This document shows, one piece after another, positions 8,035 through 25,741 of a stretch of 64,000 nucleotides of DNA (the first letter of the stretch is position 1; every line of letters begins with the position of its first letter). Below the pieces are notes generated by a model. That model made no database searches. It was given only the letters and a program-made list of their open reading frames with translations, and was not told where the DNA came from. The DNA comes from Gallionella sp. (GTDB taxonomy: Bacteria > Pseudomonadota > Gammaproteobacteria > Burkholderiales > Gallionellaceae): positions 99,932 through 163,931 of the forward strand of contig PLWV01000017.1 in NCBI GenBank assembly GCA_003153155.1. The letters are read 5' to 3'. The position numbers and the translations under genes are program-made.

Positions 8035-8150
8035 CTAATACTCCTCCGGCAACAGCAAACACGTTGATGACCGATCCGCTTCGGTAATAACCCACAACTT
8101 GTCGCCGCAATCATTCATCGCATAGCTCGACATAACTCTATACCTACCCC
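8035..8150 (-). pseudogene. Remnant of the 90-aa hypothetical gene found at 13212-13484
   Basis: On the minus strand these bases encode the C-terminal third of the 13212-13484 product (RVMSSYAMND, then KLWVITEADRSS and LLLPEEY, stop at 8035). The match stops near 8150 with no start codon or N-terminal part. It is a truncated duplicate. Confidence 0.75.
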
Positions 8151-8794: not shown

Positions 8795-9262
8795 TCAGTG
8801 ATTCCACCAATCCTTCAGCCATTTCCACAACCCATGTTGCGCAGATTTATTGGGGAGCTCCTTTGCAAGTTGATTAATTTTAGGTTGATTCAAAATATCA
8901 ACAGCTTTACGCGCATTCCCTTGTTTGATGTGTCGATTGATGTCACGCTGATCGCGTTCTTTGACGCGGCGTACCTCTTTGTGGGACATCGGACCTGACC
9001 ATACAACACGACTCCTTCTTATCCAGTAATGCGAACGACAGGGAAAATCCCAGTTCCCTATGGACGGGTACAGCGTGACCAGATTTCCATCACGATACAG
9101 TTTCCATCTTGCAGGAGAGAGGGAGGTTACAACCTTCATTCCACACCCACAACAGCACCTATGAGTAGCAGTTCCATATTTTTCGCTGATGTAGAGTACA
9201 CCGTCCTGAATCTCACGGGGTATCAGTTCAACAAACTGTGGGGTGATAGCCACAAGTTTCAT
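8795..9262 (-). CDS. DUF6527 family protein, putative zinc-binding partner of the ubiquitin-like module
   Basis: A 155-residue protein with HRCCCGCG near residue 35, then LYPSIGNWDFPCRSHYWIRR near residue 65, the pattern I associate with DUF6527. The CxCxC cluster with the later Cys/His pair suggests a zinc-bound treble-clef-like fold (inference). The last third is basic and helical. Its start overlaps the E1 stop (ATGA), so it is the third gene of a Ubl-E1-DUF6527 operon. It could act as an E3-like or substrate-recognition factor; this is a guess from context. Confidence 0.75.
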   Translation of the reverse strand: MKLVAITPQFVELIPREIQDGVLYISEKYGTATHRCCCGCGMKVVTSLSPARWKLYRDGNLVTLYPSIGNWDFPCRSHYWIRRSRVVWSGPMSHKEVRRVKERDQRDINRHIKQGNARKAVDILNQPKINQLAKELPNKSAQHGLWKWLKDWWNH

Positions 9263-10446
9263 GTGTTAGGTTCGGATGGCTTCGCACCACGAGCGAGAGA
9301 TTGAAGATCGATCGAGAAGGTCAAATTATGTGCCTGCTCGCTATCCGAATAAAACTGAAAGTATTGCTTCCAGCGTATCACAGCGATAACAGCATTCAAT
9401 GCATTCATATCAGCCACCTGAACATTCGAGTAGATTTCGTCTGCAATGTCATCATGTACATCAAGGCAGGAATCCAAGTGGTCGTTCTTTTCTGGCGTGC
9501 ACAGCGTCACACGACAGTTTCCACGAATGCTCATCGTGTCTTCAATCTTGGTCAACCCCATGCCCACGTCTATGAACGGAATTCCAGAGCTCTTCAGGTA
9601 GTTGCAGATGAGCTTACGAGCAGGGCCTTTGTCGACGGCGACAAACACAAAATCAAACCCCGCCAACTCCTCGATATTGCTTTCGGTGACGTAGTATGGA
9701 TGAAGAATGATTCCCTTTCGCATCGGATCGTACATGGCACGAAAGTAGTCAACCTTCAAAGGCTCTGCCTGAAGCTGCTCAAGGGAAGCCGCAGCAGGAG
9801 ATCGAAAGGCGTTATATGGCTTGAAGGTGTCCCCATCGTATAGATGGATTTCTTTCACCGGCGTTTTGGCGGTCAGATCGAGAATATAGCTGCCGGTTCC
9901 ACCCAGCCCAACAATGGCAATACGTGATAACCAGAGCTTCTGGGTCACGGCCACAATGCCAGCACGAGCTGATGCAGAATCACCATAACGAAAAACTGAA
10001 TCATCGTTTTTGGAGGCAACGGCACGTCCCGTTCTCGCATCGGCATCCTTATCAATAAACCGCGCTTGCGCACCGAGAATATTGATGTAGTGGGTGATTT
10101 TTTCGTAATAATCTGCAGGGAAATCCTCACGGTTGTCTGGCTTCAGCGAAAAGTAGTGTTGAGCCACGAATCTATCGAACAGGGTCGCTGGATTGCTATT
10201 GTTGATCATCTGCGAGAGCGGCTGGCCGTCTTTATTGCATGGCGTGTCCCCAACAAAATAAACCGTATGATCCGGCTTTCCGGTCTCAACATACGCACAG
10301 GCGATGATTCCGTAAGCAACCTTGCGATTTGAGGTGACGTACGGAACCGAGCTGACAATCAGGAAGCTCTTGTAGACAGTGAGCTCGTATTTTTCCGAGA
10401 CCAGCTTCTGAACATCCGGCCTAAGAGCGATGGGAGCGTTCGACAT
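9259..10446 (-). CDS. E1-like ubiquitin-activating enzyme (DUF6791 + ThiF)
   Basis: A 395-residue protein. Residues about 1-145 match a domain I know as DUF6791, and about 155-390 a ThiF/MoeB/E1 adenylation domain, with the nucleotide loop GLGGTGS at 180-186, LYDGD at 202-206 and a cysteine-containing stretch after residue 310. E1-like enzymes adenylate the C-terminus of a ubiquitin-like protein. It overlaps the upstream multiubiquitin gene by 26 bases and the downstream DUF6527 gene by 4. No separate E2 or JAB deubiquitinase gene is present; whether the N-terminal domain is E2-like is open. Confidence 0.85.
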   Translation of the reverse strand: MSNAPIALRPDVQKLVSEKYELTVYKSFLIVSSVPYVTSNRKVAYGIIACAYVETGKPDHTVYFVGDTPCNKDGQPLSQMINNSNPATLFDRFVAQHYFSLKPDNREDFPADYYEKITHYINILGAQARFIDKDADARTGRAVASKNDDSVFRYGDSASARAGIVAVTQKLWLSRIAIVGLGGTGSYILDLTAKTPVKEIHLYDGDTFKPYNAFRSPAAASLEQLQAEPLKVDYFRAMYDPMRKGIILHPYYVTESNIEELAGFDFVFVAVDKGPARKLICNYLKSSGIPFIDVGMGLTKIEDTMSIRGNCRVTLCTPEKNDHLDSCLDVHDDIADEIYSNVQVADMNALNAVIAVIRWKQYFQFYSDSEQAHNLTFSIDLQSLARGAKPSEPNT

Positions 10447-10696
10447 CGAATTTCATACCATTTACTAATTCGACCGATTCACCGTCCTGAAGTTGACCAT
10501 CGGGCCCATGCGGGGAGACGTATTGAACCAGGTAAATAATTTCACCTGGCTCGCCGGGGAACGCGAGATTTACCAACTCCCGATAGCTGATTTTGGGGCC
10601 TGGCACCTCGAACTCGCTTCCATTGATTTTAATGTGAAAGCTTGAACGCTTGCCGTTCTCATGTGTATCTTTGGTGCTTCCTTCTGAATTGCTCAT
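10421..10696 (-). CDS. Multiubiquitin-domain protein (ubiquitin-like modifier)
   Basis: A 91-residue protein with one multiubiquitin-type β-grasp domain (residues 18-88). Landmarks are FHIKINGSEFEVPGPKISY and ELVNLAFPGEPG. The frame is open further upstream, but the ATG at 10696 has AGGAGA eight to nine bases ahead and starts where homology begins. The C-terminus ends in SHRS with no Gly-Gly, so either processing or a non-glycine C-terminus is used, or it is a non-conjugated scaffold. It is the first gene of the operon and lies 141 bases from the divergent sigma-like gene. Confidence 0.85.
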   Translation of the reverse strand: MSNSEGSTKDTHENGKRSSFHIKINGSEFEVPGPKISYRELVNLAFPGEPGEIIYLVQYVSPHGPDGQLQDGESVELVNGMKFDVERSHRS

Positions 10697-10837
10697 AATT
10701 AGGTTTCTCCTATAAAGTGACAGCGCTGAAATTGTGCTCTCACTACGTATGGCTACAAGCAACCCACCTTGCAGACAAAATGCAAAAAAAATATTTTCGG
10801 GATGTCTGTATACTGGAAAAAAGGAGCCTTTTACGGC

Positions 10838-11401
10838 ATGGGACCTAACTTGATAACCACAGAGAAAATTCAAGATGTACTATCAGTAGATGAATTTAAG
10901 GGGAACCTTAGTTCATTGACTGAGGTGCAGTGGATAAAGCTCGGAAAGTCGGCTGAATACCTATGCATGGGTTTGGCTATTGAAGGTCAAGATATTCTGA
11001 ATTTGGCTTTTTGTAAGGCATTGGAAGGAAAGAGAAAGTGTCCAAGGGGGCTTCCCGTAGAAATTTTTATCTATGGTGCTATCGAAAGCCTTGTCAATGC
11101 CTACTTAAAAAAGCGCAAACGCGACCCGCTCCACCTCACGGTTAAGGTATCAGAAGAGGACGATTCTCAAGATATCGATAACCTACAAACAACTATGGAT
11201 ACGCCTGAAGAAATATTGACAGCCAAACAGACGCTTGAGGAAATAGATCAGATCATTAAGGATGATGAAGCTATGGTAGTTATGGCGCAATTGGATGGAT
11301 ATAGTCCGCAGCAAATACAAGAAACTGTAGGCCTAACTCCAAGTCAGTATGCAAGTACACTGAGATCCATTCGGCGTAAACTAAATAAGCTGGCAAAATA
11401 A
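10838..11401 (+). CDS. Sigma-factor-like DNA-binding protein
   Basis: A 187-residue protein; ATG 10838 follows AAGGAG at good spacing, whereas an upstream in-frame ATG (10769) lacks one. The N-terminal half resembles sigma region 2 (QDILNLAFCKALEGKR, then an aromatic and Leu-rich helix). The C-terminus has a region 4-like helix-turn-helix: LDGYSPQQIQETVGLTPSQY followed by RSIRRKL. It may direct transcription of this module. It starts a three-gene operon with an ImmA/IrrE protease, and such proteases typically cleave transcription regulators. Confidence 0.7.
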   Translation: MGPNLITTEKIQDVLSVDEFKGNLSSLTEVQWIKLGKSAEYLCMGLAIEGQDILNLAFCKALEGKRKCPRGLPVEIFIYGAIESLVNAYLKKRKRDPLHLTVKVSEEDDSQDIDNLQTTMDTPEEILTAKQTLEEIDQIIKDDEAMVVMAQLDGYSPQQIQETVGLTPSQYASTLRSIRRKLNKLAK

Positions 11402-11413
11402 GGAGTTCCTAAG

Positions 11414-11833
11414 ATGACATCAAATGCAAATGATCCGCGCGTGGAACTAAATAAAATCGCAAAACTATTAGTCGAGGACATGTTTAACACACCTGATGCT
11501 GAACTACTGCAAGAGGCCACAAAGGATGAATCACTGAAGGAAGCTGGCATTTCGGCGAAAAATGCTTACCAAAAAGCTATTCAAGACGTTGGTGCCAAAA
11601 GACTGCAGGCGGCAAGAGTAGCAATGACCTCTGTTAATAAACAGCCCCCATCTGTGCATCGCCACGTAGACGCTCTAACTGCGCATAAGATAATTGCGAA
11701 ATTAACTGCCGCAAATGATTCCAGCCTAACCCTTGCTGCGCGTAACTTGAATAATATCAGTGACAAGGAAGCAATAGAGTTGGTTATGGAATTAGTTGAG
11801 TTAGGGGCAATCGATAAGGATATTCAATTTTGA
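11414..11833 (+). CDS. Hypothetical protein between sigma-like and ImmA/IrrE genes
   Basis: A 139-residue acidic helical protein with AAGGAG eight bases before its ATG. No domain is recognised. It ends in TGA overlapping the TTG start of the protease gene, so the two are coupled. By position it may be the protease substrate or regulator (for instance an anti-sigma or repressor), but nothing in its sequence proves this. Confidence 0.65.
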   Translation: MTSNANDPRVELNKIAKLLVEDMFNTPDAELLQEATKDESLKEAGISAKNAYQKAIQDVGAKRLQAARVAMTSVNKQPPSVHRHVDALTAHKIIAKLTAANDSSLTLAARNLNNISDKEAIELVMELVELGAIDKDIQF

Positions 11834-12624
11834 ATATACACCTCAGCACATCTAAAGCCGAGCGGAGGTTGCTGGAGCTTGGCATCTTTGATCCCACAGC
11901 AATAGACCTTGAGGCAATTGCATGGGATGAAGGAGTGCGCGTGCAATACAGAAATCTGGTTGGCTGTGAGGCGCGACTTGTTGGATACACTGATCGAGCG
12001 ATCGTTACGATCAGAGAATCATCTGATCCTCGCAGGAAGCGATTCTCTCTGGCACATGAATTAGGCCACTGGAATTATCACCGGGGCCGTTCCTTTGAAT
12101 GCAGAGTTGATGATTGGATTGAAGGCTATAACAGTAAGCCAATCGAGGAGAAAGAAGCGGACAAATACGCTTCAGAACTCCTAATGCCCGCTTACATGTT
12201 TGAGCCCTTAGCTAAGAAAGTTAAACGCCCAACATTTGATGGTGTAAAGGAGCTTGCGGATATATTCAATACCAGTCTAACTGCAACTGCGATTCGTTTG
12301 GTCAACATGAATGTTTGGCCACTGGTGCTTATTAGTCATTCAAAGAATGGCCGGGTATGGTTCAATCGCTCAAAGGATATTCCTGAAAGATGGTTTCCAC
12401 AAAAGGATTTGAGTCAAGATTCAATGGCATTCGACATGATCTTTGGTAACGAGCAAAGAATTCGGCACCAAAAAATATCAGCCGATGCATGGTTTGATAA
12501 TCGCGAAGCAGAGCAGTATGACATTATTGAGGATGCTCTTCGTATATCCAACAATCAAATTTTATGCCTGCTATGGTTGGAAAATGATGAAATGCTCAGA
12601 GACATAGAATATTCGCGCTTCTAA
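11830..12624 (+). CDS. ImmA/IrrE-family metallopeptidase
   Basis: A 264-residue protein with zinc-protease motif HELGH at residues 76-80 and the downstream EKEAD at 107-111, which supplies the third metal ligand. This is the M78/ImmA/IrrE arrangement. Known members cleave repressors (ImmR, DdrO) after a signal such as DNA damage. The TTG start overlaps the stop of the preceding gene. A C-terminal region of about 100 residues beyond the protease core is unassigned and may sense the signal. Confidence 0.9.
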   Translation: MNIHLSTSKAERRLLELGIFDPTAIDLEAIAWDEGVRVQYRNLVGCEARLVGYTDRAIVTIRESSDPRRKRFSLAHELGHWNYHRGRSFECRVDDWIEGYNSKPIEEKEADKYASELLMPAYMFEPLAKKVKRPTFDGVKELADIFNTSLTATAIRLVNMNVWPLVLISHSKNGRVWFNRSKDIPERWFPQKDLSQDSMAFDMIFGNEQRIRHQKISADAWFDNREAEQYDIIEDALRISNNQILCLLWLENDEMLRDIEYSRF

Positions 12625-12668
12625 GCGACAGTTTAGAATATTCACATGATCGATATTACGAAAGCTTT

Positions 12669-13178
12669 ATGACACTTACAAGGCCGCCAAATACTGAACC
12701 TAATAATGTTCTCTATCGAATTCAACGGGGATTAAGTGGCTATATTAGTTATCTGGCTGCTTGCGAGATGAATCAGTCATTCAGCGAATACCTCTTGTAT
12801 GAGCCAATTCTTAGGTTACTTATGGCACGTAACTTTGTCGTTCAGTGTGAGTATGAATGCCCTGGCATTGAACAACCAAAGAAGGGTGACAAAAAACGTC
12901 TCGATTTCTATGTAACTGGTAATGGCATTGAGCTTGCAATGGAAGTCAAGTGGGTAACAAGAAAGAAAAAACTAGATGTAACTGGAGATGTGGAAAAACT
13001 AAGGGCATTTAGTGCTGCAAGAACAGGTTCTTTAGCGGTGCTTTGTATATTTGGACGGAAGTCATTCATAGAGGATATTAGCTTTGACGATCACTTCTTG
13101 AGAGAAAGAGGAAAAGCGATTTACGCTGATTTGGTTAGAACGAAATACGGCTGCCGTATTTTTGAATTCGCCGATTAG
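12669..13178 (+). CDS. PD-(D/E)XK-like nuclease, putative
   Basis: A 169-residue protein. FSEYLLYEPILRLL gives a helix with conserved Glu, followed by DKKRLDFYVTGNGIELAMEV and KW, which fits the Asp ... ExK core of PD-(D/E)XK nucleases (the D of RLDF, E-V-K of MEVKW). It lies 44 bases after the ImmA/IrrE gene on the same strand and may be an effector of that operon. Substrate unknown. Confidence 0.6.
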   Translation: MTLTRPPNTEPNNVLYRIQRGLSGYISYLAACEMNQSFSEYLLYEPILRLLMARNFVVQCEYECPGIEQPKKGDKKRLDFYVTGNGIELAMEVKWVTRKKKLDVTGDVEKLRAFSAARTGSLAVLCIFGRKSFIEDISFDDHFLRERGKAIYADLVRTKYGCRIFEFAD

Positions 13179-13211: not shown

Positions 13212-13484
13212 CTAATACTCCTCCGGCAGCAGCAAACACGTTGATGACCGATCGGCTTCCGTAATGACCCACAACTTGTCGCCACGATCATTCATCGCAT
13301 AGCTCGACATTACTCTATACCCTTCCTCAACGCTACGCTGATTCTCCAGCCGGTCTTCCTCGGGAACGCATCCCCAGTCACCGTTAGCATGCCGAGACAA
13401 TAATCTCCACGCTTCAATACCGTTTTCCTTCATGGACTGAAGTGCTCCGGGCGTTGCCACTACCTGACCTAATTTAAACAGCAT
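13212..13484 (-). CDS. Hypothetical protein (90 aa) with LWVITEADRS motif
   Basis: Starts at MLFKLGQVVATPGAL, with GGAGAG seven bases ahead; an ATG ten codons further up is less well placed. The C-terminal part (KLWVITEADRSSTCLLLPEEY region) reads like a family common on proteobacterial plasmids and islands, of unknown function. A truncated second copy lies at 8035-8150, showing duplication within the island. Confidence 0.7.
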   Translation of the reverse strand: MLFKLGQVVATPGALQSMKENGIEAWRLLSRHANGDWGCVPEEDRLENQRSVEEGYRVMSSYAMNDRGDKLWVITEADRSSTCLLLPEEY

Positions 13485-13637
13485 TTTTTTACTCTCCGGA
13501 AATGATGCCGACATGGCACTTCATCATCCGGTGGATCACTGCTGCTTTAGCAACTGAAAAATATTTACCTTAAAGCCGTTGCCCTACCCTTGGATCGGTT
13601 GGATGGTGTCCGTGTGGTTAAGACAGAAGGAGCACAC

Positions 13638-17406: not shown

Positions 17407-18552
17407 CTACGCTGCATTATTCGTCGCATGCAGCCGATTCAACACGTCCACTGCCAATCTTGACGCATCGCTGGGCGCCAAGTCGGCGTAGTAGCTTGCC
17501 GTGATGTCCACGGTCGCATGACCCAAGATTTTTGACACGTAGTGGATTGGCACGTTGTTCTGCACCAGCCGAGATGCACAGGTCTTTCTAAGGTTGTGGA
17601 ACGACACGCCTTCAATGCCAGCCCGGTCGCATGCACTGCGGAACGCTCTCGGTGAATATTTGCGTGACCCGCCTGACTTGCTCTCGAAAATGTAAACCTG
17701 ATTGCTCGGCTTGGCATCGAACCTGCGTTGCAGCACCTCCCCTGCCCGGTTTGTCAGCTGCAACATCGTCTGATTGCCCACCTTCGGGCGATACAGCTGC
17801 ACCTCGTTGCGATCCAGCCGCACGTCTTTCCATTGCAGCTTTGACAGCTCGCTGTGTCGGCATCCGAGGTCAAGCAGCAGCAACGCGAAGTCATAGGCGT
17901 CGTTTTTCATCCTGCGCATTTCTTCGGTCTGGTTTTCAACTGTTGCAAGGCCACGAGCTGTCCTATCCGGATGCAGCTCTTCCAGCAACCGTGCTTCTTC
18001 CTCAATGCTCAGGAACCGGATACGCTTGCGGTCTGGCTTGATTGCATTGTCCCGCTTGATCTCGGCCAGGTTGAGCGCTGGCACTTCATATCCTAATTTC
18101 CTGCATAGCTTGATGATGGCGTTCAGCGTCAGTAGCTCATACAGGATCGTCCCGTTAGCGTTCTGCTCTTTCCGGCGTTCAAGGACTAATCGCTGCAAAT
18201 CCTTGGTCTTGAGCTCGTGCAAATTAGTACTGCCGTCAAAGCCGAAACAAGCCGCACGGTTCCGCGTGCCGGGATGATTCTTTAACCCCACCAGCTTGTT
18301 CGCCCGTGCCTTGATGTTGCTGTATTCGTTGTTATCGCGTTTACTGTCGAGGAATAACTGAATCGCCGCCTTGACCGTGATCGGCTCGGCCTTATCGTTG
18401 AGCGATGCCTCTATCGCCTTCCTGCGTTCACCCTCCTCCACTTTCTTGGAGACGGTCTTGTTGCTGGTGCCGGTTGAACCGAAGTGTTTCTTGCCGTGTA
18501 GCTGGAACGAGTAGTACCAGTTCGGACTTGATGCGTGTCTGACTATGCTCAT
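17407..18552 (-). CDS. Tyrosine recombinase (integrase C)
   Basis: A 381-residue integrase only distantly related to integrases A and B. Catalytic residues are Arg in GCRHSELS, HNLRKTCASR (HxxR), GHATVDIT and Tyr in SYYADL. It lies 70 bases upstream of the replication gene on the same strand, so integration and replication genes form one block. The ATG at 18552 is preceded by AGGAG, supporting this start. It may belong to a different element captured by the island. Confidence 0.9.
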   Translation of the reverse strand: MSIVRHASSPNWYYSFQLHGKKHFGSTGTSNKTVSKKVEEGERRKAIEASLNDKAEPITVKAAIQLFLDSKRDNNEYSNIKARANKLVGLKNHPGTRNRAACFGFDGSTNLHELKTKDLQRLVLERRKEQNANGTILYELLTLNAIIKLCRKLGYEVPALNLAEIKRDNAIKPDRKRIRFLSIEEEARLLEELHPDRTARGLATVENQTEEMRRMKNDAYDFALLLLDLGCRHSELSKLQWKDVRLDRNEVQLYRPKVGNQTMLQLTNRAGEVLQRRFDAKPSNQVYIFESKSGGSRKYSPRAFRSACDRAGIEGVSFHNLRKTCASRLVQNNVPIHYVSKILGHATVDITASYYADLAPSDASRLAVDVLNRLHATNNAA

Positions 18553-19218: not shown

Positions 19219-20631
19219 TCATCGATTCAAAAAGTTAAGCTTATTCTGCTTTGGCTGAATCTCTTGCCATAGACTATCAAAAATCATTTCTGCGTTAGGC
19301 AGAACGATGGTTTGAGATAATGCAGATTCCAAATTTTCTTTTGTCACAACCGCGACACCTTTGTTTCGCACTTCCTCAATATCAGCTTTAACTTCATCCT
19401 TTGGTTTTGAAGTAACGATTACAGGTAACACCCTTAAATGATGATTGCCCGACGAAATCAGACGCTTTCTGACAATCTCGCTACGTTCAACTAATTTTGC
19501 CACTTTGTCACTTTTTAGCAAACCCGTTGTGCATTCCACTATCAAGATGTTGCCACTTGGAGTCGTTGCTACAATATCTGCTGCATCTGAAGTATTTTCT
19601 CTACCACCAACTTGAGATGTACTAAAACCAAGCATCCACAATAACCAAGCAATTCCAAACTCGAAATCTCGCGCGTCCTTTCCTCGTCGTTGTTCATCAA
19701 ATAAATACGACTGAAGTACACCTAAACCACCGTGGAACTCTTCCAATAATACGCGACGTGAATTCTGATAATTCTTTGGGTCAGCAATCCAGTATTGATG
19801 ATGAGCGAACCCGTTATAACAAGCAAAACAATTAAGCGCAGCCCCTTTGGGAATACTCACCTTGCCTGCACCTTGGCGAAAGTGTTCAAGCTCAGACCAA
19901 TTAATCACATTACTTAAAATGTTGCCTCTGGCCTCTGTCTTACTATGCAGTAACACACGATAACCAATATAGCACTTGGCAGGATCGAGCGTTTTTGCAA
20001 GGTTAATGAGTATTGTTCCTTCCTCACCATCCACAGTTGATTTGGCATCTATTGCTGCAACAGACGTGGCAACCACTTCAAAAATAGCCGAGCTACTTTG
20101 ATTGCCAGCCAGAGAATACTCAGCAATCAACTCATTCAGAGAATCGAAAGGCCGAGAACAGGCTTTAAGTTCCCAATCAAAATCAGGCTGATCGATATAT
20201 GTCTGCAGCCCATCACCGGTAATCGTAAGAACCGAAAGCCGGTTCCCGCCCGCAATAGCATCACGATTAAATCCGTCAAAATTAGCATGTAGGCTTCCAC
20301 CAGCATTGGCGGATTTAGGAAATATAAGCTTTCCGGCCGGCGTTTCAAGCCCCCCAGTACTAAACAGTTGCACGATTAGCTCTCGAAAATTCACGCCTAA
20401 CACAGAAAGATAGAAATTCCCCGCAAGTAACCGCGCGGATTCGAACTGCGTATGAGGAATGGCTGATGGCGCTGTATGCAGGAATAAACGTCCCTGAAGC
20501 AAATAAATTGTGCCTCTCTTGCGCACAGCAAAGTAGCTCAAACTCGCATCAGTATATGCACTTTCCCATGGTGCAATAGCAGAGAATAACCGCTCAATTT
20601 CATTATTAATATGCTCAGGTATCGTATTCAT
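19219..20631 (-). CDS. Restriction-endonuclease-fold protein attached to type I RM operon
   Basis: A 470-residue protein. The first 300 residues are unrecognised β-rich sequence. Residues about 315-420 look like a Mrr/PD-(D/E)XK fold: EFGIAWLLWMLGFSTSQVGG, then DAADIVATTPSGNILIVECT, where the usual ExK reads ECT. Its ATG shares a base with the hsdS stop (TAATG), so it is translated with the type I enzyme. It could be an extra nuclease, an anti-restriction control factor or a second effector. Confidence 0.65.
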   Translation of the reverse strand: MNTIPEHINNEIERLFSAIAPWESAYTDASLSYFAVRKRGTIYLLQGRLFLHTAPSAIPHTQFESARLLAGNFYLSVLGVNFRELIVQLFSTGGLETPAGKLIFPKSANAGGSLHANFDGFNRDAIAGGNRLSVLTITGDGLQTYIDQPDFDWELKACSRPFDSLNELIAEYSLAGNQSSSAIFEVVATSVAAIDAKSTVDGEEGTILINLAKTLDPAKCYIGYRVLLHSKTEARGNILSNVINWSELEHFRQGAGKVSIPKGAALNCFACYNGFAHHQYWIADPKNYQNSRRVLLEEFHGGLGVLQSYLFDEQRRGKDARDFEFGIAWLLWMLGFSTSQVGGRENTSDAADIVATTPSGNILIVECTTGLLKSDKVAKLVERSEIVRKRLISSGNHHLRVLPVIVTSKPKDEVKADIEEVRNKGVAVVTKENLESALSQTIVLPNAEMIFDSLWQEIQPKQNKLNFLNR

Positions 20632-21809
20632 TATTTGCTGAACACCTGCGCCAGTAATCCGTCAAAGATGGCTTGTGCCTTGCCGGTGGCGGCGGATTGT
20701 TGGGATTGGATAGCGCGGATTTGCTCGATACTATTGGCAAAATGGTCTTGCAATTCTTTCGATGGTATTGGCAAAGCCAGTTCACTCAACTCGGACGCAT
20801 TAAATTTTCTGTTGATCTGCTGACGAGATACACTAATAAAATAACCTCTTGCCCTCATTAAATTTAGCATCGACCAGAGGAAGTGCGAATTTAGCCGTTT
20901 GGCATTTGGTCTCAGTCTCAGTAGAAATGATACATGCAGCACTTTCTCATCACTTTCCCACAATGCTGTCTTGCCAATGTGCGACTCACTACCATTGCGC
21001 CAGTTGAATAGTAGATCACCTCTCTCCACAGAGCATTTTTTAATTTTGTTTTCTGTAGCGAAGCAATATCGCTCGACAGTTGGATCGATTACGCCCGCAA
21101 GCAATACATTTGAAATAGTCAGGATTCGCAATCCCTGTTCCTTAGAAATCGATGTATCAAGCTTGTCGGCTATGCCGTAACTAACCTCACATATTTCATC
21201 GAGCCTTAACTTCGGCCACCCTTTCGGGTTCGTTGCGGGATCGCCGAACATGTCGAGGAACAACGCGGGGATCAGCTCAGTAGCTTTTTTCTCGGCCTCG
21301 CGCCGCAGCCGCACGATGCCATCAGCACGGGATAGAATATCCACGATGCGGCGTTGTTCGGTGATGGGTGGTAATGGTAGTGGTTGGTCTAGCACCTGTG
21401 AGTCCATTACTGCGGGATACATTGCACCAGCCACAAGAGAAGTCAGACTTTCTACAAAATTGCGAGACCTCACGAAGTAAAATAGGTATTCCGGTAATAC
21501 CTTGGCTGTGGCTCGAAGCACACAAAAACCAGTGCTCGCAACTTGGCCATCAAGATCAGCTGAGACAAGTGCTACTGCATTCAGATTTGGCCTAACTGTG
21601 GACACCAAGATGTCTCCCGTATGGATCAGTTTGCGCGCTCGACTTGGAGCCTCAGATCCAAACATGCTTCTTGTTCCAACGACAATCTTCTCGGTGTTAT
21701 CTATTGCAGCTACATCGACGTAAATGAAGCTCTCATTCGGTGCCTTGGTAGGATTCCGAGTGCCAGTGGTTTTCTCGACAATTTCTCCGAGCTTGGCGAG
21801 TTCATGCAT
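20631..21809 (-). CDS. hsdS: Type I restriction enzyme specificity subunit HsdS
   Basis: A 392-residue subunit with two target-recognition domains, each followed by a conserved helix: PLPLPPITEQRRIVDILSRA near 135 and ALPIPSKELQDHFANSIEQI near 355. The two domains each read half of a split DNA target. The start ATG overlaps the hsdM stop (TGATG). It determines the sequence that HsdM methylates and HsdR guards. Confidence 0.95.
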   Translation of the reverse strand: MHELAKLGEIVEKTTGTRNPTKAPNESFIYVDVAAIDNTEKIVVGTRSMFGSEAPSRARKLIHTGDILVSTVRPNLNAVALVSADLDGQVASTGFCVLRATAKVLPEYLFYFVRSRNFVESLTSLVAGAMYPAVMDSQVLDQPLPLPPITEQRRIVDILSRADGIVRLRREAEKKATELIPALFLDMFGDPATNPKGWPKLRLDEICEVSYGIADKLDTSISKEQGLRILTISNVLLAGVIDPTVERYCFATENKIKKCSVERGDLLFNWRNGSESHIGKTALWESDEKVLHVSFLLRLRPNAKRLNSHFLWSMLNLMRARGYFISVSRQQINRKFNASELSELALPIPSKELQDHFANSIEQIRAIQSQQSAATGKAQAIFDGLLAQVFSK

Positions 21810-23431
21810 CAGGCAGGTTCTCCTAGAGCGGCCCGCAACGCTTCAACTTCCTCGGCAATCTCAACCTCTATTGCCGCCAATTCATCCAACAACTCGCGCG
21901 GGTCGCGATGCTCGACGGCAGTCTGGCTCATCGGGCGGTAGCGTCCGGCAGAGAGATTGAAATCGTTGGTGCGCAAAGTCGCTGCATCGGCGAACCACCA
22001 TTGCTGAGGCCATTCCGCTGCTGTATCTCGCGCAGACCATTCTGCCCTGCGTTCTTTGCGAGTGCGGTAGGCATCTGCCAGCATCGGCAAGTCGTCTGCC
22101 TCAATGGCGGTGTCGTGATTGGCATCCAGCTTGTAGCCGTCATTGTCGGCGTGCAGGAACAGCACGTTTTCAGTGCTACCGCCTTTCTGGAAGAACAGCA
22201 CAGAAGTCTTTACGCCGGAATACGGCTGGAACACGCCACCGGGCAAGCTGAGTACAGCCTCGACGGTGTTGTTCTCAATCAATTGGCGGCGCAATTCCTT
22301 GTGCGCACCAGTGGAGCCAAACAGCACGCCTTCGGGGATGATGACACCGCAACGTCCGCCTGGTCGCAGGCTGTCCATCATGTATTTGAGAAACAGCAGT
22401 TCGGTCGCGGTGCTGGTACCGACCCTCACTTCATCCACGATGCGGTCTTTATCCAACCGTCCGGAGAACGGTGGATTGGCGAGCACGATGTGGTAGCCTT
22501 CCAACGGCAAGCCTAACTCGGTTTTGCGTTCGTTATCTAACGTGGTGGTGAGTACATTGCGCTGCAAGATGCGCACATTGGCCAAGCCACGCAAAGTGAG
22601 GTTCATGGTGGCAAGGCGCACCATCTTGGGGTCAACGTCGTTGCCGTAGAAGGTGCTATTTTGCAGCAAGGAGACTTGTGCCGCTGAAAGCTTGTCTCCG
22701 ATGCCACGCTTTTGCCTTTTTCCATCCACGTCTTCCTCATGGATGCCGTTCGGCGATGAATTGGCAAGGCGAATATAGTTGAACGCTGCCACAAGGAATC
22801 CCGCTGTGCCTGCTGCCGGATCGTAGATAGTTTCGCCGATCTTCGGATCGAGCATTTCCACGATGGCTCGAATGATGTGACGCGGAGTGCGAAACTGTCC
22901 AAGTTCACCCGCCTGTTTGATCTGGCGCAGCACATGCTCGAACAGGTCGCCTTTGGTGTCGGTATCTGCTTGATCCAGACGCAGCCCATCCACCAGATTC
23001 ACCACTTGGGTCAGCACGGTAGGTTCATCGATAGAAAGACGCGCACCATTCATGAAATTGACCGCAGAGCGCTCCGCGACTTCGGTAAAGAACGGAAACA
23101 CTTCGTCGCGCACGAAGCGCACCAGTGCTTCACCATTCAAGCCCTTGGCCCATACCGACCATTTGAAACGGCTTTTAGGTATAGTCCTGGCGTTCGATTC
23201 CGGTGCATTGAGCGGATTGCGCAATGTCCATTCACCCGCAAACAGCGATTCATATTTCTGTTTGTGCACCTTGGCCTTCATGGTGTTCTCGGCATCGATG
23301 CCTTCGATGAGATAGAAAAAGAACAGGAAGGAAAGCTGCTCGGCATTGCTCATCGGGTCTGGATAGCCGCCACCGTATAGGTAGTTGCGTATCTGGTCGA
23401 TGGACTGGCGCATTTCTGGAGTTAATGACAT
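21809..23431 (-). CDS. hsdM: Type I restriction enzyme methyltransferase subunit HsdM
   Basis: A 540-residue N6-adenine methyltransferase. An N-terminal HsdM helical domain precedes the catalytic domain with AdoMet motif DPAAGTAGFL (about residue 203) and catalytic NPPF (about 320). Length is normal. It forms M2S with HsdS. HsdM ends inside the HsdS start, and a 27-base gap separates it from hsdR. Confidence 0.96.
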   Translation of the reverse strand: MSLTPEMRQSIDQIRNYLYGGGYPDPMSNAEQLSFLFFFYLIEGIDAENTMKAKVHKQKYESLFAGEWTLRNPLNAPESNARTIPKSRFKWSVWAKGLNGEALVRFVRDEVFPFFTEVAERSAVNFMNGARLSIDEPTVLTQVVNLVDGLRLDQADTDTKGDLFEHVLRQIKQAGELGQFRTPRHIIRAIVEMLDPKIGETIYDPAAGTAGFLVAAFNYIRLANSSPNGIHEEDVDGKRQKRGIGDKLSAAQVSLLQNSTFYGNDVDPKMVRLATMNLTLRGLANVRILQRNVLTTTLDNERKTELGLPLEGYHIVLANPPFSGRLDKDRIVDEVRVGTSTATELLFLKYMMDSLRPGGRCGVIIPEGVLFGSTGAHKELRRQLIENNTVEAVLSLPGGVFQPYSGVKTSVLFFQKGGSTENVLFLHADNDGYKLDANHDTAIEADDLPMLADAYRTRKERRAEWSARDTAAEWPQQWWFADAATLRTNDFNLSAGRYRPMSQTAVEHRDPRELLDELAAIEVEIAEEVEALRAALGEPA

Positions 23432-23458
23432 TGCAAGTTCTTTCTATGAAGAAGCCGG

Positions 23459-25603
23459 TTACTGCGTGTTGGCTGGACGATCTTGCGTAGTGGCTTGGTG
23501 TATTTCTTTGTCTAAATGGAATACGTTGGTGTTGAGGCTTCCTATCACTTCATCCAGTTGAGACTTGCCGCCGAAAACACGCAGCGCATTCTGGTATCCG
23601 CCTTGCGAGCTGAAGATCGGCAGCGCAAAGTAGTCGCTGGTGAACTCGTTCCATGTTTCGGCATTGGCACGTAACTGACTGCCGACCACTCGCAGGAGGT
23701 TTTCTTGTAAGGGGTTGAGGTCAGTACGCGACACCAACCAAGCCTCGAATCGTGTGCCCAGTTCGCTCGCTTTCTGCTCGGATACTTCCGGAAAAACGAT
23801 GTTGCCGTCCTCATCCACCGTGACCCATTCGCGAGTAGTCGGGTCGATATGGTCGTCGATGTCGAGCGACAGGAGCTTGCGAGGCTGGGATGGAGGTCGT
23901 CTTGGTCTTTCAATAATGAAGCCACCCGTTGCGTAGTCTTCATCATCTCCGTGGTAATCCGTGACACCAACGAAATCGAACATGGTAAATAGCGGCTTGT
24001 TTTGCGACTTGCGTGTGCCACGTCCACGCATCTGCTGATACAGGATGACGGACTTGGTGAAACGAGCAAACACCAGATTGGCAACTTCCGGACAGTCAAA
24101 GCCCGTATCCAGCATGTTCACCGATACCAGTATTTGCGGAAACTGTTCCTTCTTGAAGCGCTTGATCTTGGTCATACCGTCCACGGTATCGTCCCGGCCC
24201 ATGCCGGAAACCACATAGTCGGCATATCGCACATTAGGCGATGACTTCTTGTCCGCGAAGGCTTCATCAAACATCTGCGCCAGCGTCTCGGCATGGCGTT
24301 TAGTGACCGCAAACACGATGGTCTTGCCCATCAGCGGTTTGCGCTGGATGCCCCTGTGGTCGATGTAGCCGTTGTCCATTACCTGACGGAATTCGCGCAC
24401 CAAAGCGCGGTTGCGTTCGGGGATGGTGAAGCGACGTTCCAGCGCATTCGGGTCGATCATCACGGAATCGTTTTCCTTGAACAGCACTTCAAACTCTTGC
24501 TTGGTCTTGGCATCCATCGCCGACCAGTCCAACTCGTCGCGCTTCACTTCAAAACCACCTTCTGCTGCGGTCTTGACGGTCTTGGCTTTATAAATCTGGT
24601 ATGGCACGAGATAACCGTCGCGGATGGCGTCCCTGAGTTTGTAGATGAAGGTGGGCTTGTCCACTTCGAAGAATTTCAGGGTGTCGCGCACAAATAATTT
24701 GTCGTCTTCATCCTCTGTGGCGGTCTCCTCTCCGCCGACACAGGGTGTGGCGGTCAGGCCGATCTGGATGCCGTCGAAGTGCTTGAGCACGCCACTCCAT
24801 TTTCCATAGATGCTGCGGTGGCATTCGTCCGAGAAAATTAGATCAAAATATCCGGCAGAGTATTCGCCGTAGATATTGATCATGCTTTGCAATGTGGTGA
24901 TGGTGATTCGCTTCTCATCCTGAAAGCGTCGACCCGCCCGCAACACATAGGACGGATAATCCGGCAGGTGTTCGGCAAAGGCGTCTTCTGTTTGTATAGC
25001 CAGCGGGATGCGATCTACCAGAAAAAGCACACGGGTCACGGCGTTTGCTTCGAACAATCTCTTAATGAGTGCTACGGCAGTGCGGGTCTTGCCTGTGCCA
25101 GTCGCCATTTCTACCAGCAGTTTACGGCGACCTTGTTCGATCTCGCGGCAAAGGGTTTGAATGCATTCTTGCTGGTAATCGCGTCCGGCAATTTTGACAT
25201 CGATAGGAACGCTTAACGGCTTGCGAGCAACTTGCAGGGTTGCGAAGCGACGCTCCAGGTCATCTTGCTTAAAGAATGTTTTAACGGGACGCGGAAAGGC
25301 TTCGCGCTGCCATTCCCAGAACCGAATCTCGTTACCGTTAGCAAGGAAAATATAGGGAACCTTGAGTTGCTTGGCATAATTCCTTGCTTGCTCGGCGGCA
25401 TCTCCAGGACTTACGGAAAAACGCTTGGCCTCAATAACCGCAAGCGAACGACCATGCCGGTCGCACAGCACATAGTCAGCGCGTGTACCGTCGTCCTGCA
25501 TCACCTCATAACGAACACTCATACCGTCGGCAAGGCTCCAACCTTGCGCGATGAGCTGGCTGTCAATGATGACGCGAGAAAAAGCTTCGTTGGTGGATTG
25601 CAT
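23459..25603 (-). CDS. hsdR: Type I restriction enzyme translocase/nuclease subunit HsdR
   Basis: A subunit of about 714 residues, close to EcoEI-type R. An N-terminal nuclease core (DYVLCDRHGRSLAVIEAKRF, an Asp ... ExK motif) is followed by SF2 motor motifs: MATGTGKTRTA (I), SDECHRSIYG (II), GLTATP (III) and QQMRGRGTR (VI). The frame also opens at GTG 25621; ATG 25603 (MQSTNEAF) is the more usual start. First gene of the operon hsdR-hsdM-hsdS plus the 470-aa protein. Confidence 0.95.
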   Translation of the reverse strand: MQSTNEAFSRVIIDSQLIAQGWSLADGMSVRYEVMQDDGTRADYVLCDRHGRSLAVIEAKRFSVSPGDAAEQARNYAKQLKVPYIFLANGNEIRFWEWQREAFPRPVKTFFKQDDLERRFATLQVARKPLSVPIDVKIAGRDYQQECIQTLCREIEQGRRKLLVEMATGTGKTRTAVALIKRLFEANAVTRVLFLVDRIPLAIQTEDAFAEHLPDYPSYVLRAGRRFQDEKRITITTLQSMINIYGEYSAGYFDLIFSDECHRSIYGKWSGVLKHFDGIQIGLTATPCVGGEETATEDEDDKLFVRDTLKFFEVDKPTFIYKLRDAIRDGYLVPYQIYKAKTVKTAAEGGFEVKRDELDWSAMDAKTKQEFEVLFKENDSVMIDPNALERRFTIPERNRALVREFRQVMDNGYIDHRGIQRKPLMGKTIVFAVTKRHAETLAQMFDEAFADKKSSPNVRYADYVVSGMGRDDTVDGMTKIKRFKKEQFPQILVSVNMLDTGFDCPEVANLVFARFTKSVILYQQMRGRGTRKSQNKPLFTMFDFVGVTDYHGDDEDYATGGFIIERPRRPPSQPRKLLSLDIDDHIDPTTREWVTVDEDGNIVFPEVSEQKASELGTRFEAWLVSRTDLNPLQENLLRVVGSQLRANAETWNEFTSDYFALPIFSSQGGYQNALRVFGGKSQLDEVIGSLNTNVFHLDKEIHQATTQDRPANTQ

Positions 25604-25741
25604 GGTGCGTGAGGGTATCACAGCACGGCAGAAGTTTGGATATGCCGAACGGACTATGTATTTTCAGTGCGACCGATCATCGCGCTCCGGCCTGTCTTAC
25701 CAAAATAATTGTAAAAGTGAAAATGTATAATCAGAAAGCCA

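Follow-up and report, generated by a model that had tools for sequence, protein, structure and literature searches.

We analysed a 64,000-nucleotide (nt) stretch of DNA from Gallionella sp. (contig PLWV01000017.1, positions 99,932 to 163,931), hereafter called the window, in which an operon for a ubiquitin-like protein (Ubl) lies opposite an operon for a sigma factor and an M78 metalloprotease. Every gene listed in the first-pass annotation was confirmed at its coordinates, together with the overlaps, and the two operons diverge from an intergenic region of exactly 141 nt (10697-10837). On the minus strand, the effector operon begins with a Ubl of 91 amino acids (aa) that has one PF14452 domain (10421-10696; E-value 8e-16). 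It is followed by a 395-aa E1-like enzyme with an N-terminal DUF6791 and a ThiF/E1 domain (9259-10446; PF20590, 4.6e-41; PF00899 ThiF, 9.9e-14) and, as the third gene, by a 155-aa DUF6527 protein (8795-9262; PF20137, 6.8e-24). The E1 and Ubl genes overlap by 26 nt and the DUF6527 and E1 genes by 4 nt. The plus-strand operon encodes a 187-aa sigma factor resembling those of the extracytoplasmic function (ECF) group (10838-11401), a 139-aa helical protein which we propose to be an anti-sigma factor and call the partner (11414-11833), and a CapP-like M78 (ImmA/IrrE) metalloprotease with an HExxH motif, the proposed trigger (11830-12624).

Recurrence of the controller cassette

The plus-strand half is a recurring cassette of an ECF-like sigma factor, a partner of about 140 aa and a CapP-like M78 protease. 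When the protease was used as the query, 32 of 72,556 plasmid records matched at E <= 1e-10. We opened 15 plasmid loci from these matches, and in 14 the protease is directly preceded by genes for a sigma-like and a small protein; the exception, L091, has a helix-turn-helix (HTH) gene there, as is usual for CapH. A further eight of the 32 records had been reached via sigma or partner matches (L029-L031, L034, L038-L040 and L042). All three cassette genes were present in each of them, but since they were picked through these matches, the presence of a sigma or partner gene in them does not count as independent evidence. Of 23 plasmid loci scanned with profiles, which some of them had helped to build, 22 gave a match for the sigma factor and 20 for the small protein. 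Two Bacteroidota loci, L089 and L090, have a gene in the partner position that the small-protein profile missed. Together with the window, two loci from whole genomes (L026, L027) and two IMG/VR contigs (L092, L097), the plasmid loci bring the total to 27 loci with the trio, each with a gene in the position equivalent to the partner.

The operons facing the cassette were classified by annotation, Pfam and phmmer. Ubl operons were faced by 8 of the 27 cassettes (the window, L027, L038, L078, L080, L085, L089 and L090) and nucleotidyltransferase operons of the cyclic oligonucleotide-based antiphage signalling system (CBASS) by four (L029, L040, L084 and L088). One cassette (L079) faced an operon with ThiF and patatin, while six faced small DUF2188, DUF3892 or 92-aa genes (L030, L031, L034, L077, L086 and, beyond an insertion sequence element, L087). 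The facing genes of the remaining eight are without class assignment; in L092 the sigma gene starts at the edge of the locus and the facing genes are outside the view. In the protease tree, 27 sigma-type and 13 CapH-type entries were split by one change with a support of 94/82. Ubl and CBASS loci were interleaved within the sigma type, which indicates that effectors were exchanged.

The controller and the Ubl operon are separate modules, and the Ubl operon can follow another controller. In L006, a Ubl/E1/DUF6527 operon whose E1 is 90% identical to that of the window has no controller cassette and stands behind a CapS-like gene. The product of this gene, 183 aa long, has a winged HTH at its C-terminus (MarR_2, 3.3e-4, below cut-off), and the position of the gene is CapS-like; the STAS part of the protein is a by-eye reading without a match, and capK was not seen at this point, where the contig ends. 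CapK+CapS is reported upstream of 231 Bub operons in an excerpt of PMC13373217, and the L006 operon resembles that arrangement in its preceding winged-HTH gene, whereas the window has no such gene. The Ubl/E1 operon also occurs without the cassette in L028 and L033. The first-pass annotation took the two halves for one fixed system and named their co-occurrence across genomes as the check. This check, when run, spoke against a fixed system: each half was found alone, with E1 matches in 116 plasmid records (E <= 1e-5) and the protease in 32, and the cassette also faces CBASS and other operons.

A single-protein query gave no sigma relative in the viral collection, for which the partner and sigma profiles were too variable for scanning, and the protease profile gave 53 viral loci, with the trio in two (L092 and L097). 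The phage collection contained no protease relative at E <= 1e-10. The sigma profile matched 6 of 398 Pseudomonadota genomes at E <= 1e-8, the window's own genome included. In a sample of 369 genomes of the class, the sigma search gave 19 matches at E <= 0.001. The own genome and G364 were ahead of the rest, the next best match being at 6.7e-6, and they were also the strong ones among the four matches (E <= 0.01) that the partner profile gave in 339 genomes of the class. In the literature searched we found no description of a cassette of sigma factor, partner and M78 protease; such loci may be counted as CapH+CapP in the Bub papers or in Lau et al. 2022, which lay outside the search.

A 92-aa gene repeatedly faces the cassette (L029:4004-4282, L030:4559-4837, L031:4564-4842, L034:4511-4789 and L086:3316-3594). 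The five genes are taken as one family by length and place only. The gene adjoins DUF2188 in three of the five loci, has no Pfam family (L029 and L030 tested) and is a candidate small effector.

Pairs of a sigma factor and a short partner (78-87 aa) that lack the protease were observed in L035, L036, L037 and L041, with the promoter signature described below upstream of the sigma gene. They face a gene of the ribosomal RNA adenine methyltransferase family (L036, L041) or an S8 peptidase (L037). In L032 (Mesorhizobium) a Ubl/E1 operon faces a sigma factor and a partner with a degenerate tail (MAFKS). The third gene of L032 (5924-7360), considered as a possible protease, encodes a 478-aa protein with no Pfam family above cut-off; by eye, its start may be Ntn-hydrolase-like.

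Sigma factor, promoters, partner and protease

The window sigma factor matched TIGR02937 (sigma70-ECF) with an E-value of 6.2e-8 and 32.4 bits, below the cut-off of 42.9. Against the PDB, the profile of its family matched entries of the ECF factor SigH (4.1e-7 and 1.5e-6) across sigma2 to sigma4. Besides this sigma2/sigma4 homology, a promoter of fixed spacing was found across loci, as for an ECF sigma factor; in the window only its effector-facing site is significant. Of these two lines of evidence for a true sigma factor, the one from the promoter DNA is the stronger.

The promoter consensus, TGTCYGA-N17/18-GC(C)ATAG, faces both ways in the intergenic regions. It was derived from five loci and scored over 13 positions on 25 others (20 trio loci and 5 without protease), against 200 dinucleotide shuffles each. 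At p <= 0.05, 15 of the 25 loci had a sigma-facing and 13 an effector-facing site, where about one was expected, and none of three sigma-free control Ubl loci was significant in either direction. The spacer was equal on both sides in all 22 loci with two sites of at least 10/13, although it is 17 or 18 nt between loci. This match held in 18 of 18 loci after near-duplicates were removed (reached by 2 of 100000 permutations), and in 25 of 28 when any site was accepted. The gap between the two -35 elements ranged from 1 to 178 nt across the 22 loci, which argues against an operator. Matched spacers with a variable gap are explained by two promoters read by one sigma factor, not by the operator of a dimeric repressor. 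That the intergenic regions have two promoters, one reading the sigma gene and one the effector operon, is well supported.

In the window, the effector-facing promoter lies on the minus strand at 10747-10777, with the -35 element TGTCTG (10772-10777), an 18-nt spacer and the -10 element GCCATAC (10747-10753). It scored 11/13, which was reached by 1 of 200 shuffles. The string TGTCTG-N18-GCCATA has exactly one occurrence in the 2.75-Mb assembly. With one mismatch the scan of the genome gave 7 matches and the reversed-pattern control 10, and therefore only the exact site is informative. A possible sigma-facing, autoregulatory promoter was placed on the plus strand at 10803-10832 by analogy with the other loci (-35 TGTCTG, 10803-10808; spacer 17-18 nt; -10 GCCTTT). 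The loci without protease keep the sigma-facing promoter, with 12/13 in L035, L036 and L041 and 10/13 in L037 (p 0.08).

The partner is 113-146 aa long across the trio loci, and in its alignment a helical N-terminal part is followed by a tail of the form LT-x-AAR-N-x4-SD; in the window the C-terminal tail is LTLAARNLNNISDKE. In 25 of the 27 trio loci, all except L089 and L090, the motif A[AFH]R is positioned 24-35 residues before the C-terminus. It was present in one of five protease-less loci (L032, elsewhere in the protein), a difference with a Fisher p of 0.002 among loci that are not independent.

A PADLOC capH match (0.0032) had suggested that the 139-aa protein is CapH. We ruled this out by a comparison with 11 canonical CapH proteins: CapH starts with an XRE fold (XRE-HTH), and the partner does not. 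The tail was the one stretch in which the two aligned, AARNLNNISDKE with FFRKYKNMSEPD. Within the C-terminal 55 residues, the pattern R-x4-[LMIVF][ST]xx[DE] was found in 10 of 25 partners (0.40 by shuffling), 6 of 10 canonical CapH proteins (0.19) and none of four protease-less partners, which we treat as a lead and not as proof since the pattern was chosen after the alignment. Of 339 genomes, 233 had matches in the capH family search, as did every one of the 14 control genomes. The search thus measures XRE proteins generally, and served solely to retrieve canonical pairs. As a lead, the tail would fit one protease family that cuts one type of tail on two types of regulator, and the 139-aa protein, left aside in the first-pass annotation, is the likely substrate of the protease.

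The protease matched PF06114 (1e-14) and the PADLOC capP model (9.1e-63), and against the PDB it matched CapP (7t5t, 6.9e-8) over residues 64-175. According to the accessible text of PMC13373217, CapP is activated by single-stranded DNA (ssDNA). PprI, another M78 protease, is described in part of PMC10904395 as stimulated by ssDNA and as cleaving its regulator in the C-terminal domain.

The ubiquitin-like effector operon

The window E1 belongs to the NCBI PRK06153 group. Its sequence match in the PDB was Citrobacter BubCD (9.1e-5), and Foldseek with a weak model (mean predicted local distance difference test score, pLDDT, 52) placed BubCD at all of ranks 1-8. The operon resembles Bub in its multiubiquitin-family Ubl, in this E1, which in the weak model is closest in fold to BubCD, and in the DUF6527 neighbour. 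That neighbour is also found in L006, L027 and L028 and is annotated in L038, L080 and L089. In contrast to Bub, the window E1 is without a JAB domain and has DUF6791 in place of a separate Prok-E2_E protein; that BubB is the E2 is taken here from PDB titles and neighbourhoods. The JAMM motif of a JAB fused to E1 was read in L038, L080, L085 and L089, and a separate Prok-E2_E protein is present in L078 and L080.

The first-pass annotation had described the Ubl as lacking a terminal Gly-Gly, and it does end in RSHRS. A C-terminal Ser is found in the window, L006, L027, L028, L033 and L163. The same annotation held that E2 and JAB parts are absent. For JAB this is borne out at the sequence level: the 395-aa E1 shows neither a JAB domain (Pfam) nor a JAMM motif on reading of its sequence, and by Pfam the window operon has neither JAB nor a separate Prok-E2_E protein. 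The E2 half of the statement is less settled. DUF6791 has a His60-x9-Cys70 pair in which both residues are invariant, Cys70 being the sole invariant Cys in five aligned E1 proteins, and its weak model (mean pLDDT 52) starts with an alpha-beta4 arrangement of E2-like look. A PDB profile search gave no E2 match for DUF6791 (one chance-like match), and hhalign found no match with two E2_E proteins, a further alignment covering the ThiF part only; the absence of an E2 fold among these matches is no evidence against E2 identity. The His/Cys pair and the model are suggestive of DUF6791 as a candidate E2-like domain.

In L038 (3912-4862) and L085 (2926-3828) the C-terminus of the multiubiquitin protein is like the end of the L080 Prok-E2_E protein (RHNxxWRPGxDGIWTMxKRVE), suggesting a Ubl-E2 fusion. 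Another, different Ubl operon lies in the genome of the window at a distance of about 16 kb (G000 C15:88588-92572, L177). Its products are a Ubl (Multi_ubiq, 4.1e-5, just below cut-off), a ThiF protein (2.1e-37) about 512 aa long, a protein resembling phosphotransferases (APH, 2.9e-9) and DUF6527 (7.6e-16).

Proposed mechanism, rival explanations and genomic setting

The best explanation of the locus, and one that we hold to be rather probable, is a three-gene controller of the CalpL/T/S kind with a CapP-family protease, which switches on the Bub-related operon. The partner would keep the ECF-like sigma factor inactive. The M78 protease, probably stimulated like CapP by ssDNA from damage or phage replication, would cut the conserved tail at the C-terminus of the partner. 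The freed sigma factor would then guide RNA polymerase to two mirror-image promoters, a step supported by the promoter anatomy across loci, and so to its own gene and to the effector operon. There, the E1 may activate the C-terminal Ser of the Ubl, perhaps with transfer to Cys70 of its own DUF6791, for conjugation to targets. As a module, the controller is found in front of Ubl, CBASS and other operons. Cleavage of an anti-sigma factor by the protease to free a sigma factor would be consistent with the gene order, the tail and the promoters. The first-pass proposal that protease and sigma factor switch on the Ubl arm gains support from the recurring cassette and from the dedicated promoter facing the Ubl operon.

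The cassette shares with CapH+CapP a CapP-family M78 protease beside immune operons, Bub included, and a tail pattern on the presumed substrate. It differs in that this substrate is not an XRE-HTH repressor and in having a sigma factor with dedicated promoters, which would make activation the mode of control. With CalpL/T/S of type III CRISPR it shares the logic of protease, anti-sigma and sigma factor in a defence setting. There, as given in the text available from PMC12751052, a Lon protease activated by cyclic tetra-adenylate (cA4) cleaves the anti-sigma factor CalpT and frees CalpS. The Calp protease is a Lon-SAVED protein that senses cA4, whereas the cassette protease is of the M78 family, and neither CalpT nor CalpS was among the PDB matches listed for the partner and sigma profiles (in one case the best 60 of 96). 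PprI/IrrE and DdrO of Deinococcus are likewise an M78 protease and the regulator it cleaves, but DdrO is a DNA-binding repressor and no sigma factor takes part. We regard the cassette as a CapH/CapP type of controller that acts as an activator and follows a logic like that of Calp.

Several observations weigh against the proposed controller. The trio loci are not independent of each other. In the five other Pseudomonadota genomes matched by the sigma profile there was no CapP-family protease or partner within the 10-11 kb fetched, which means that the sigma family also occurs without the protease. Activation of the window protease by ssDNA is carried over from CapP and PprI and would hold by analogy. 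The partner has no Pfam family above cut-off, no convincing solved relative and no detectable homology to known anti-sigma factors; its model is weak (mean pLDDT 60) and all helix. By profile, the tails of partner and CapH align weakly (hhalign probability 1.3%), and the tail pattern was drawn from the partner family with the CapH alignment already known. The promoter test was not blind: the regions were read before the consensus was set, and one form of the -10 element came from the test locus L038. Ten sigma-facing and 12 effector-facing test sites were not significant. Both directions were non-significant in L027, L037, L039, L082, L083, L088, L089 and L090; L027 is the closest relative with a matching layout, yet it fails the promoter test both ways. 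Only the sigma-facing site was non-significant in the window and L040, and only the effector-facing site in L026, L032, L035 and L038. In the window itself the sigma-facing site scored 9/13, reached by 63 of 200 shuffles, and the best spacers differ, with 17 nt on the sigma-facing and 18 nt on the effector-facing side.

Another reading is an unusual CapH/CapP repressor pair: the sigma-like protein and the 139-aa protein would jointly repress by binding DNA at the inverted TGTCCG sites, their operator, until inactivated by the protease. The CapP-like protease, the CapH-like tail of the partner and the CGGACA/TGTCCG inverted repeat between the operons all point this way, and an excerpt of PMC13373217 reports 219 of 544 Bub operons beside CapW or CapH+CapP. 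We nevertheless think a repressor pair unlikely: the half-sites are 1-178 nt apart, yet the -35/-10 spacers of 17 or 18 nt match in 22 of 22 loci, as for two promoters and not one operator. Moreover, the partner is without an XRE-type HTH, and the match of the sigma-like protein with sigma factors spans its length.

It is quite unlikely that an ordinary ECF sigma island merely stands beside an unrelated Ubl operon through the clustering of defence islands. Such chance placement would be favoured by the mobile cargo slot with its repeats and integrase, described below, and by the occurrence of the halves apart; against it stand the divergent layout, the shared promoter grammar, which extends to the effector operon in 13 of the 25 loci tested but in none of three controls, and the window site itself, which was equalled by a single shuffle in 200 and whose exact string is unique in the genome. 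Highly improbable, in our view, is a toxin-antitoxin-like or plasmid-maintenance locus with a harmful protease, the partner as antidote and an unrelated neighbour. Many copies of the cassette are on plasmids, and pairs of a metalloproteinase and an HTH-Xre protein have been studied as toxin-antitoxin systems (PMC10538038, in part). But the effector-facing promoters are spaced like the sigma-facing ones and the cassette is repeatedly placed opposite CBASS and Ubl operons. The protease-less versions, for their part, retain the sigma factor, the partner and the sigma-facing promoter (12/13 in L035 and L036; 10/13, p 0.08, in L037).

The proposed controller can be extended to a joint reading, to which we give even chances. 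CapP-family proteases would recognise a common tail on CapH and on the anti-sigma factor, two unrelated regulators, and the E2 of the window would be the E1-fused DUF6791, whose Ubl substrate, with its terminal Ser, would require no maturation by JAB. If true, very different immune operons, ubiquitin-like conjugation included, would be armed by one exchangeable activator switch, two unrelated regulators would have a protease recognition tail in common, and the trigger of such ubiquitin-like operons would become testable.

Downstream of the protease gene, after a gap of 44 nt, there is an open reading frame (ORF) for a 169-aa PD-(D/E)XK-like protein (12669-13178, plus strand). The nuclease assignment comes from a D..ExK-like stretch, recognised by eye, and from an SfsA match below threshold (0.0083). 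We rejected the ORF as a member of the cassette, and with it the nuclease arm of the first-pass annotation: it had no relative in the plasmid collection and no match in the 10 loci compared. Judged from these comparisons, it is probably a bystander or a locus-specific add-on outside the conserved cassette.

The 5-kb cargo is flanked by direct repeats of 110 nt with 94% identity (8035-8144 and 13212-13321), each corresponding to the 3' end of a gene for a 100-aa protein (13212-13514). The window contig has seven full or 3'-end copies of this gene, and the Ubl/sigma block lies between two of them. A sister element on the same contig (G000 C15, about 63-78 kb) has in the matching slot a UmuD-like gene (Peptidase_S24, 5.5e-32) and, by eye, a UmuC-like ORF. 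Its integrase (C15:76155-77300) resembles, also by eye, the one at 17407-18552 of the window. The region looks like a cargo-exchange element. Further along the window, translations of 21809-25621 read as type I restriction-modification-like genes (methylase, helicase/nuclease-like), with a specificity-like ORF beside them at 20631-21809.

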